From NCBI GenBank assembly GCA_947449575.1, contig CANFRV010000011.1:1-64000 (forward strand): a stretch of 64,000 nt of DNA, written 5' to 3'. The notes under the pieces are model-generated. The model saw nothing but the letters and a program-made list of their open reading frames with translations. It was not told the DNA's origin and did not search any database. Below, piece by piece: positions 55,104 to 57,629 of this stretch (its first letter is position 1; every line of letters begins with the position of its first letter). The translations under genes were made by a program, and so were the position numbers. Origin of the DNA: Flavobacteriales bacterium. GTDB taxonomy: Bacteria; Bacteroidota; Bacteroidia; Flavobacteriales_D; Crocinitomicaceae.

Positions 55104-55934
55104 TTAAATCGCTAACCCTTCTCCTTTATATACACCTAGAATTTTTATTGATTCTACAAAAGGTGATAATTTATTGATTGCTGTATCGAATACCTTCTTA
55201 TCATCAAACTCAATATCTAAATGAAAAGCATACGAAGAAGGAGTTTTTGGAATGGGAACACTCTGAATTTTAGTTAAATTCAAATTCGCTTCTTTCAAAA
55301 CAACCAAAATATCACTCAACCCTCCCACATGATTATGTGTTTTGAGCGTTATGGATCCTTTGTTTGGATTGGGGTCAAAGTCAGCTCCTTTACTTAAAAT
55401 ATAGAAGCGTGTAAAATTGGGATTTTCATCCCCCACGTTATCAACGACAACGTCCAATCCATATGTTTTTCCTACTGTTGGCCCTGCAATTACCGCTAAC
55501 TTGTTTTCTGTGTCCGCAGCAACTAATTTTGCAGAAGTAGCAGTGTCTTTGAATTCTGACACAACCACATTTTCTAATCCCGAAAGAAATAATTGACATT
55601 GACCAAGAGCCATTGGATGTGAAATGATTTCACGAATATCACTTAGCTTCGTTCCTGGTTTAGCTAATAATTGCAACTCAATAGGCAAATACGTTTCACC
55701 AATAATATTTAGATTATGCGTGTCTATCAATTGATAATTAAGTAAAATACTTCCTGCAACTTTATTTTCGATTGCGATTATTCCGTAATCAACCTTATTG
55801 TTAGCCAACTTATCACATACCTCTTTGAAAGATCCACATTCTAAAACGGTTACATCTTCACCAAAGTACTTTTTAGCAGCCAAATCGTGAAAAGAGGATA
55901 CTGATCCTTGTATTGCAATTACGTGATTTCTCAT
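55104..55934 (-). CDS. pheA: Prephenate dehydratase
   Basis: The 276-residue enzyme converts prephenate to phenylpyruvate. The catalytic domain (about residues 1-180) begins IAIQGSVSSFHDLAAKKYFG and has NKVDYGIIAIENKVAGSILLN and the catalytic NFTRFYIL (Thr of the TRF motif). A C-terminal ACT domain (about 195-272) has HNHVGGLSDILVVL. The usual Phe-binding ESRP signature is replaced by KIQSVPIPK, as seen in Bacteroidota. It is the first gene after the phenylalanine attenuator and heads the operon to aroA. The chorismate mutase it needs is fused to the next gene's product. Confidence 0.96.
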   Translation of the reverse strand: MRNHVIAIQGSVSSFHDLAAKKYFGEDVTVLECGSFKEVCDKLANNKVDYGIIAIENKVAGSILLNYQLIDTHNLNIIGETYLPIELQLLAKPGTKLSDIREIISHPMALGQCQLFLSGLENVVVSEFKDTATSAKLVAADTENKLAVIAGPTVGKTYGLDVVVDNVGDENPNFTRFYILSKGADFDPNPNKGSITLKTHNHVGGLSDILVVLKEANLNLTKIQSVPIPKTPSSYAFHLDIEFDDKKVFDTAINKLSPFVESIKILGVYKGEGLAI

Positions 55935-55974
55935 ATTTTTTTCATTTAAATTGTTTTCGTTTTTTTAGATGGTA

Positions 55975-56001
55975 TAAAAAAAGCCTTCCTACATGGAAAG
56001 C
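55975..56001 (-). terminator. Attenuator terminator of the phe leader
   Basis: On the minus strand AGCTTTCC pairs with GGAAGGCT (one G-U pair) around a four-to-five base loop and is followed by a run of seven T. It lies 41 bases before the pheA start. The sequence is nearly identical to the two terminators upstream of asnA. Confidence 0.92.
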
Positions 56002-56002
56002 T

Positions 56003-56033
56003 TTTTTATATGTGTATATAACAAATCTCTCCC
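56003..56033 (-). promoter_or_regulatory. Antiterminator element GGGAGAGA of the phe leader
   Basis: GGGAGAGA (56026-56033, minus strand) overlaps the last base of the leader stop codon. GGAGAG can pair with the CTTTCC of the 5' arm of the terminator (one G-U pair), giving an alternative fold that prevents termination. A ribosome at the stop codon would cover this element and let the terminator form. The same element occurs in both asn leaders. Confidence 0.8.
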
Positions 56034-56083
56034 TAGTCCCTCCAGTGAAAATCGTAAAAAAAGAAGTTGTTCATTTTTTTCAT
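56033..56083 (-). CDS. Phenylalanine operon leader peptide (MKKMNNFFFYDFHWRD)
   Basis: A 16-codon open reading frame that starts with ATG at 56083 and ends with TAG at 56033-56035. Four of its 16 codons are phenylalanine (three in a row) with one tyrosine and one tryptophan. It is followed within zero bases by the antiterminator element and then by the terminator. This is the classical form of a leader peptide that stalls the ribosome when charged tRNA-Phe is scarce. An ATG three codons in is an alternative start. A -7 promoter box lies 32 bases before the ATG. Confidence 0.9.
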   Translation of the reverse strand: MKKMNNFFFYDFHWRD

Positions 56084-56114: not shown

Positions 56115-56122
56115 CAAAGATA
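56115..56122 (-). promoter_or_regulatory. -7 promoter box of the phe leader and operon
   Basis: The minus strand reads TATCTTTG. The predicted start site is near 56110, leaving a leader of about 27 bases before the leader-peptide ATG. The region 56123-56274 behind it holds no gene. Confidence 0.7.
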
Positions 56123-56274: not shown

Positions 56275-57303
56275 TTATAATAATTTTATATTTTCTCTAC
56301 TCAATTTTTCTAAAACAGCTTCAGACCAGATACTACTTTGCACTTCACCAATGTGTCTTTTTTGTAAAATAAACATAGCTAGACGTGATTGGCCAATACC
56401 GCCTCCAATTGTGTAGGGAAGTTTTTCATCTATCAATTGTTTGTGCCAATCCATTTCTAATCGTTGTTCTTGATTTCTCAAAGCCAATTGTTTCTTTAAA
56501 GATTCAGGACTAACACGAATACCCATCGATGATAGTTCGTATGATTTCCCTAGAATCTCATTCCATACCAAAATATCGCCATTTAATCCTTTTTTTCCAT
56601 CCACCGATTCTGTTGTCCAATCATCATAATCGGGTGCTCTTCCATCGTGAGGTTTACCATCTGCTAAATCACCACCAATACCTATTAAGAAAACGGCTCC
56701 AAATTCTTGGCAAATTTTATCTTCACGCTCTTTCCCTGTCAAAGTAGGATATTTAACGAGCAAATCTTCTGTATGAATAAAAGTAATTTTTTGAGGAAGC
56801 GGTAATTCACCTAACTCATATTTTTCTACAATCGATTGACTAGTTTCCAAAATAACTTTGTAAATTTCCTCCACTGTACTTTTTAAATAGGAAAGAGTTC
56901 TATCTGATTTATCAATAACTTTTTCCCAATCCCATTGATCTACAAAAATGCTATGTATTGGTGAAAAATCTTCATCTGGACGCAAAGCTTTCATGTCTGT
57001 GCAAATTCCCAATCCTTCTGGCGCCTTCAATCTTGCTAATTTAGCACGTTTCCATTTAGCTAAAGAATGAACAATTTCCACAGTAACATTGGGCATTTCC
57101 TTTATATTAACAGTAACTGGACTTTCAATACCGTTCAAATCATCATTGATTCCAGTACCTTTTACCACTAAAAGAGGAGCCTCTACTTTTATAAGGTTTA
57201 ATGTTGCTCCTAACGCAGATGAAAATTTTAGTTTCAATTCTGAAATTGCTTTTTCTGTCGTTAACTCTGTTAAGACCAATTGACTAGTTTTAATTGTTTC
57301 CAT
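56275..57303 (-). CDS. asnA: Aspartate--ammonia ligase (asparagine synthetase A)
   Basis: The 342-residue enzyme makes asparagine from aspartate, ammonia and ATP and is built on the class II aminoacyl-tRNA synthetase fold. Its conserved blocks include VVKGTGINDDLNG near residue 47, EIVHSLAKWKR near residue 76, DQWDWEKVIDKSDR near residue 122, RAPDYDDWTTE near residue 221, GDILVWNEILGKSYELSSMGIRVS near residue 240 and YTIGGGIGQSRLAMFILQKRHIGEVQSS near the C-terminus (class II motif 3 with catalytic Arg). Its mRNA leader contains two consecutive attenuators with asparagine codons. Confidence 0.97.
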   Translation of the reverse strand: METIKTSQLVLTELTTEKAISELKLKFSSALGATLNLIKVEAPLLVVKGTGINDDLNGIESPVTVNIKEMPNVTVEIVHSLAKWKRAKLARLKAPEGLGICTDMKALRPDEDFSPIHSIFVDQWDWEKVIDKSDRTLSYLKSTVEEIYKVILETSQSIVEKYELGELPLPQKITFIHTEDLLVKYPTLTGKEREDKICQEFGAVFLIGIGGDLADGKPHDGRAPDYDDWTTESVDGKKGLNGDILVWNEILGKSYELSSMGIRVSPESLKKQLALRNQEQRLEMDWHKQLIDEKLPYTIGGGIGQSRLAMFILQKRHIGEVQSSIWSEAVLEKLSRENIKLL

Positions 57304-57326
57304 TTTTTATTATTGATTTTAAGTAT

Positions 57327-57353
57327 AAAAAAAGCTTTCCTAATTGGAAAGCC
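57327..57353 (-). terminator. Second (proximal) asn attenuator terminator
   Basis: On the minus strand GGCTTTCC pairs with GGAAAGCT around a five-base loop (AATTA) and is followed by seven T. It ends about 24 bases before the asnA ATG, downstream of the second leader peptide. Confidence 0.92.
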
Positions 57354-57373
57354 TATTATTTGATTATAATATT

Positions 57374-57381
57374 TCTCTCCC
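57374..57381 (-). promoter_or_regulatory. Antiterminator element GGGAGAGA of the second asn leader
   Basis: GGGAGAGA on the minus strand begins three bases after the second leader stop codon (TGA at 57385-57387). GGAGAG can pair with CTTTCC of the terminator's 5' arm (57346-57351), with one G-U pair. It corresponds to the element in the phe leader. Confidence 0.8.
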
Positions 57382-57384
57382 TTT

Positions 57385-57423
57385 TCACTTAAATTGATTA
57401 TTACCATTCTTTTGAGCTTTCAT
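57385..57423 (-). CDS. Second asparagine leader peptide (MKAQKNGNNQFK)
   Basis: A 12-codon open reading frame from ATG 57423 to TGA 57385-57387. Three of the codons are asparagine, in NGNN. An in-frame ATG at 57471 would extend it by 16 codons (MSAKKINKTVLK...). No TAnnTTTG box lies between the first terminator and this frame, so it seems to be transcribed only when the first attenuator is read through. Its stop is followed by GGGAGAGA and the second terminator. Confidence 0.85.
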   Translation of the reverse strand: MKAQKNGNNQFK

Positions 57424-57487
57424 GAATCTCTCACATTTCAAAACTGTTTTATTTATTTTTTTTGCGCTCATCTTATTTTGTTTATTC

Positions 57488-57516
57488 AAAAAAAAAGCTT
57501 TCCTAGTTGGAAAGCT
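57488..57516 (-). terminator. First (distal) asn attenuator terminator
   Basis: On the minus strand AGCTTTCC (plus 57509-57516) pairs perfectly with GGAAAGCT (57496-57503) around a five-base loop, followed by a run of nine T. It lies downstream of the first asn leader peptide and about 190 bases before asnA. Confidence 0.93.
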
Positions 57517-57542
57517 CTCGTATTTATCATTATGACATAGTT

Positions 57543-57549
57543 CTTTCCC
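57543..57549 (-). promoter_or_regulatory. Antiterminator element GGGAAAG of the first asn leader
   Basis: GGGAAAG begins two bases after the leader TGA. GGAAAG is perfectly complementary to CTTTCC in the terminator's 5' arm (57509-57514). The adjacent AAAGAA is also complementary to the TTCTTT of the Phe codons inside the leader, which could give the classical 1:2 pairing. Confidence 0.8.
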
Positions 57550-57550
57550 T

Positions 57551-57601
57551 TCACCTAAAGCGATTATGATTAAAGAAAAAATTATAATTTGTAGTTTTCA
57601 T
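57551..57601 (-). CDS. First asparagine leader peptide (MKTTNYNFFFNHNRFR)
   Basis: A 16-codon open reading frame from ATG 57601 to TGA 57551-57553. It contains four asparagine codons (AAT, in NYN and NHN) around three phenylalanine codons. An in-frame ATG at 57619 would add MKNRNA, with two more asparagines, but lies at the predicted transcription start. The NFFF core and length match the phe leader, which suggests common origin. It is followed by GGGAAAG and a strong terminator. Confidence 0.88.
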   Translation of the reverse strand: MKTTNYNFFFNHNRFR

Positions 57602-57621
57602 TGCGTTTCTATTTTTCATGT

Positions 57622-57629
57622 CAAAGGTA
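57622..57629 (-). promoter_or_regulatory. -7 promoter box of the asn leader and asnA
   Basis: The minus strand reads TACCTTTG, matching TAnnTTTG. The start site would be near 57617, about 16 bases before the leader ATG at 57601. No second -7 box is seen before the second leader. The bases 57630-57801 behind it hold no gene. Confidence 0.7.

Follow-up and report, generated by a model that had tools for sequence, protein, structure and literature searches.

The window, which is the whole 64,000-nucleotide stretch of DNA analyzed here, carries on its minus strand the gene asnA (56275..57303), coding for an aspartate-ammonia ligase of 342 amino acid residues (Pfam PF03590, E 4e-95). Upstream on the same strand lies recQ (60035-57858), followed by a terminator of its own at 57830-57807, found in the terminator scan. 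From 57629 to 57326, the minus strand then presents a single promoter box, two successive modules each made of leader, antiterminator, and terminator, and finally asnA. The original prediction had described one promoter box and two leader peptides with their terminators ahead of this gene, and all of these parts were located.

The promoter -7 box, TACCTTTG (57622..57629), matches the Bacteroidota consensus TAnnTTTG. Leader ORF 1, MKTTNYNFFFNHNRFR (57551..57601), was recognized from its sequence, from Asn and Phe codons at the control distance, and from its relatives; it contains four Phe codons besides its Asn codons. The antiterminator segment of module 1, GGGAAAG (57543..57549), was assigned by pairing with CTTTCC, by folding, and by the swap test described below, and terminator 1 (57488..57519) possesses a stem of 11 pairs (57519-57493) with a loop of five and a U-run to 57488 (−15.5 kcal/mol). 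In module 2, leader ORF 2, MKAQKNGNNQFK (57385..57423), has Asn codons but lacks the Phe run and is probably a copy of the first. Its segment, GGGAGAG (57375..57381), precedes terminator 2 (57326..57354), which has nine pairs (57354-57332), a loop of five, and a U-run to about 57326 (−12.2 kcal/mol). The G-rich segments had been predicted to follow the leader stop codons at two to three bases; the close spacing is real, but they start one and three bases after the stops. Their predicted complementarity to the 5′ arm of the terminator is complete in module 1 (six Watson-Crick pairs), whereas in module 2 the match to CTTTCC comprises five Watson-Crick pairs and one G-U.

Downstream of asnA is a third module with a promoter box of its own. 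A second -7 box, TATCTTTG (56115..56122, minus; a pattern match), stands upstream of the aromatic leader ORF 3, MKKMNNFFFYDFHWRD (56033..56083, minus), the counterpart of the pheA leader in a sister species (L222). The module 3 segment, GGGAGAG (56027..56033, minus), was assigned by folding, and terminator 3 (55971..56007, minus) by scan and folding. These are followed by pheA (55104..55934, minus), encoding a prephenate dehydratase of 276 amino acid residues (Pfam PF00800, E 5e-53), and by genes for DAHP synthase/chorismate mutase, aroB, and aroA. Over the 2 kb region, five terminator-like sites are present, as against 0.6 ± 0.9 in shuffled sequences.

Antiterminator pairing

Folding of the three window modules gave the antiterminator as the predicted best structure when the 3′ arm of the terminator was absent (−9.7 kcal/mol for module 2 and −10.2 kcal/mol for module 3), and the terminator as the predicted best structure when this arm was present or when the segment was covered by a ribosome. 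The free full-length fold of module 2 mixes pairings.

Across 35 modules of asnA and pheA, the segment pairs better with its own terminator arm than with swapped arms (permutation p ≤ 5e-5), a result which the one module read on the wrong strand (L222, with a palindromic hairpin) should weaken rather than inflate. The same significance (p ≤ 5e-5) was reached for the 20 modules without (C)CTTCC arms. The set spans unrelated segment and arm sequences, for instance TCGAGAAG/CTTCTCGA, AGGTGAG/CTCACCT, and GCCGGCGG/CCGCTGGC.

A strict segment/arm/arm pattern has exactly two matches in the 3.5 Mb genome, both of them here, and its reversed control has none; since the pattern was built from these two sites, the count speaks for rarity only. 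A looser scan, in which leader, antiterminator, terminator, and gene were sought together, covered 1.04 Mb of the genome, the window included, and returned eleven matches, four of which are convincing: both asnA modules, pheA, and a hisG-like gene. The last, named from its sequence, lies on the minus strand of L210 (near 8095) in this genome and has the His leader MILKMKQQLHHHFIRLQAL and a terminator before it. Two asnB-like genes of the same genome, inspected by eye, showed no leader.

Asn leaders in related genomes

The upstream regions of asnA were read across the genus, family, order, phylum, and other orders. The nearest asnA found in other genomes has about 65% protein identity, and the comparison with relatives is one of modules, not of the exact pair. 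Within the genus, the asnA leaders MKMMSNNFFFNNNNHIR, MKINNTYFFFNNNYMT, and MKTMNNNFFNFNNHTK are followed by one terminator apiece. An Asn-rich leader with a terminator precedes asnA in many Bacteroidota, the family of the window among them; outside the family it was found in Cesiribacter andamanensis, a Flavobacterium MAG, a Flavobacteriales MAG, and two Bacteroidales MAGs. Family f20 contributes about 20 members with an Asn leader before asnA, such as MRHFRNNLQNNNSNNNLIRDWKAIAP. Many Bacteroidota asnA genes are without such a leader, and among the asnA loci checked outside this phylum an automatic scan flagged none. The conservation of leader frames, Asn codons, and hairpins that the original prediction proposed to look for among relatives is found in the arrangement as a whole, together with antiterminator covariation at the level given above (p ≤ 5e-5).

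In the f20 leaders (L109, L133, L154, L157, and others), a small hairpin whose shape is conserved stands directly before the antiterminator segment, with the Asn codons in its loop. Examples are TCGAAT...ATTCGA and CGGAACA...TGTTCCG, with changes on both sides of the stem.

By itself, leader 2 has an Asn content within chance for an AT-rich background when compared with dinucleotide shuffles (p = 0.53). Shuffle tests of Asn content at a single locus are weak in AT-rich genomes, so comparative tests were used instead and the case was built on the relatives. Over the 35 asnA modules, Asn accounts for about 69% of the codon positions 12-20 nt upstream of the antiterminator segment and for 0-14% of those at 0-11 nt (Fisher p = 3e-25, on related rows), a profile favored by the choice of some relatives' leaders and segment positions by eye through their Asn and G-rich runs. 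By comparison, the pheA modules (n = 6) have mostly Phe, Tyr, or Trp codons and no Asn at 12-29 nt, with F/Y/W at the nearest places. The distance of 12-20 nt corresponds to the expected A-site position of a stalled ribosome whose leading edge would just free the segment. Cognate codons, a fixed control distance, an intrinsic terminator, and a mutually exclusive antiterminator with covariation are found together, as in an attenuator, and we regard the comparative evidence for a putative ribosome-mediated attenuation before asnA as strong.

Phe codons and operon content

In the family of the window, asnA is usually the first gene of an asnA-pheA-aroGQ operon, whose leaders carry both Asn and Phe codons; pheA lies close behind asnA in about ten of these loci, with PHENYLALANINE codons in the leader. 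At the control distance, Phe makes up 42% of codons in leaders of asnA-pheA operons versus 8% in those of asnA without pheA (p = 6e-5), and leaders of pheA without asnA are low in Asn (p < 0.001). In the window, between 12 and 35 nt from the segment, module 1 has Asn at three and Phe at three of eight codons, and module 2 has Asn only. Phe codons are also seen in a few leaders of asnA without pheA (L057 and L109), so that the combined reading of Asn and Phe is not exclusive.

A sister species (G009) has the closest recQ and pheA found, at 92% and 88% identity. There recQ is followed directly by the Phe leader MTQNFNFFFFSFFHKCD of pheA and by pheA itself (L222), and asnA is absent from this position along with both of its modules. 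From this layout and the operon-linked Phe codons, the asnA leader of the window is best read as an inherited Asn and Phe leader. Phe as the main signal of asnA leaders was considered and dropped; outside the family, the leaders contain Asn with little Phe.

Tandem modules and their origin

Among the sampled loci, six have tandem modules, namely the window, L090, L009, L102, L021 (Cesiribacter), and L057, and the second modules of the five others are likewise Asn-coded. These pairs in other lineages go beyond the original prediction, in which the Phe codons of leader 1 were also undiscussed. On the AsnA tree, the tandem state requires five changes, at least three of which are forced by well-supported branches. 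Of 24 first modules, 18 are preceded by the TAnnTTTG box, as against none of the six second modules (5% in shuffled sequences), from which we surmise that tandem modules are probably carried on one shared transcript.

The two modules of the window are 84% identical over aligned columns (z 10.7), the Phe run being missing from module 2. Leaders of the genus fit module 1 better than module 2, and in the match to the relative L005 module 1 scores 48 and module 2 scores 35. Module 2 probably arose by local duplication of module 1 and later lost the Phe codons. Recent duplication as the source of all pairs was rejected, as within L009, L102, and L057 the two modules show only a weak similarity (z 2.7-3.3), less than the second module of L009 shows to that of L102 (z 6.1). 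These weak similarities within pairs, and the Asn-then-Pro second leaders which several loci share, indicate that the pairs arose by more than one route.

The second leaders of L009, L102, L090, and L021 (NNNNNNSPP, NNNKAPP, FFFGPPP, and NSPPTR) share a run of Asn codons with two or three Pro codons behind it. These C-rich codons may pair with the G-rich segment as a protector helix. The reading frame of the second leader extends into the terminator in L009 and L102.

Proposed mechanism and alternative explanations

From the anatomy, the conservation, the placement of codons, the antiterminator covariation, and the association with operon content, we infer how stalling, termination, promoter use, and regulatory logic would fit together. 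We consider it very likely that two ribosome-mediated transcription attenuators, one behind the other, control asnA from a single promoter, the modules working as follows. For lack of charged tRNA, the ribosome would stall on control codons some 12-20 nt upstream of the G-rich segment; the segment would be left free to pair with the terminator's 5′ arm, and transcription would go on. A ribosome that reaches the leader stop codon would cover the segment, the terminator would form, and transcription would stop. Module 1 would sense Asn and probably Phe as well, as should the asnA-pheA leaders of relatives; module 2 would sense Asn; and the aromatic module 3, with its own promoter box, would serve pheA. 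Since asnA would require read-through of both terminators, its expression is expected only under Asn shortage and with a lower leak. The claim of two serial attenuators for one amino acid is upheld in the series, the single promoter box, and the Asn codons of both leaders; the restriction to one amino acid is qualified by the Phe codons of module 1.

The pair may sharpen the response to Asn, in line with the steeper repression and lower leak that the original prediction proposed, may filter out Phe starvation, or may do both. Phe starvation would open module 1 but not module 2, and asnA would then answer to Asn alone. More tentatively, and at somewhat less than an even chance, we suggest that Bacteroidota have repeatedly built multi-stage asnA attenuators, and that here the Phe-less copy of a duplicated Asn and Phe leader gates asnA to Asn while pheA is placed under separate aromatic control.

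An unlikely alternative is that module 1 alone works and that module 2, a duplicate in decay, has a terminator which does no more than reduce asnA expression. The few Asn codons of leader 2 (three in total, a count within chance) would agree with this, as would its poorer fit to relatives. Yet module 2 has kept its leader frame, control-distance Asn, segment, and terminator though the Phe run is gone, selection would be expected to act against an unregulated terminator ahead of asnA, and Asn-coded second modules recur in five further loci. It is also rather improbable that the two modules form a two-input pair resembling mgtCBR, in which Phe starvation truly induces asnA. The equal numbers of Asn and Phe codons at the control distance in module 1 speak for such a pair, but with the Asn-coded terminator 2 in series, Phe starvation by itself should not suffice to induce asnA, and pheA has a promoter box and a leader of its own.

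We think it very improbable that a protein or a small-molecule riboswitch acts on the hairpins and that the small ORFs are incidental. Asn codons are indeed expected by chance in AT-rich sequence, and a TAT(T)G box recurs 3′ of the antiterminator segment, but the codons track the operon at one distance (Asn for asnA, F/Y/W for pheA, and both for asnA-pheA). An Rfam search furthermore returned no family at its threshold, only weak matches to Phe_leader and spurious ones, one of them to a microRNA; it gave no match to a T-box RNA upstream of asnA. Finally, that these are two ordinary unregulated terminators, insulating asnA from recQ for example, is the least probable explanation, for although the two qualify as good intrinsic terminators, recQ already has one of its own, with the promoter box between that one and both modules.

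Comparison with known leaders

The classical ribosome-mediated attenuators of E. coli, trpL, pheL, and hisL, share with the modules described here a leader ORF with control codons, a competing antiterminator, an intrinsic terminator, and a biosynthetic gene; the present system differs in that Asn would be sensed, two modules stand in series, and the host belongs to the Bacteroidota. The weak Rfam matches to Phe_leader (RF01859) run over its full length, with 30.4 bits for module 1 and 29.9 bits for module 3, below the gathering threshold of 55 bits; module 2 has no match, and the window leaders have Asn codons. The Bacteroid-trp motif is a Trp leader and concerns a different amino acid. This candidate cis-regulatory RNA of Bacteroidetes (RF01692; PMC2864571) gave no match in the Rfam searches. 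Clues to leader-peptide attenuation before amino acid operons have come from RNA data of Flavobacterium psychrophilum, the main text of which names no Asn (PMC9723704).

Two systems come closer in their serial arrangement. The leader mRNA of Salmonella mgtCBR likewise has two leader ORFs, each controlling elongation, but these sense different signals (ATP and proline) and the hairpins are unlike intrinsic terminators (PMC3641672), whereas both leaders here carry Asn codons and both have intrinsic terminators. Tandem riboswitches and T-boxes for one ligand also consist of two complete units in series, for which a digital response, steeper and with a lower leak, has been argued (PMC12452182). 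In those, the RNA itself binds the ligand or tRNA; here the translating ribosome would be the sensor.

The original prediction knew of no described pair of Asn-leader attenuators, and none was found in the open-access papers searched, nor was any Asn leader-peptide attenuator or any leader-peptide attenuator pair for the same amino acid. The locus would be the first example found of two serial ribosome-sensing attenuators for the same amino acid, and the leaders as a group would extend the range of amino acids sensed via leader-peptide attenuation to asparagine, across several Bacteroidota orders. If the proposal is true, the leader peptides would constitute a natural logic filter, evolved through duplication and specialization, and possibly a case of an attenuator that specialized after duplication while the operon content changed. 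The leaders, which range naturally from one-input through two-input to two-stage, would allow a test of how terminators in series affect leak, steepness, and specificity.

A further feature of the modules is the TAT(T)G-like box 3′ of the antiterminator segment, present in 23 of 32 modules (34% when shuffled) and located at 57530-57542 in the window. Together, the G-rich segment and TAT(T)G are similar to the consensus for elemental pausing by RNA polymerase, and the box may therefore be a pause site.
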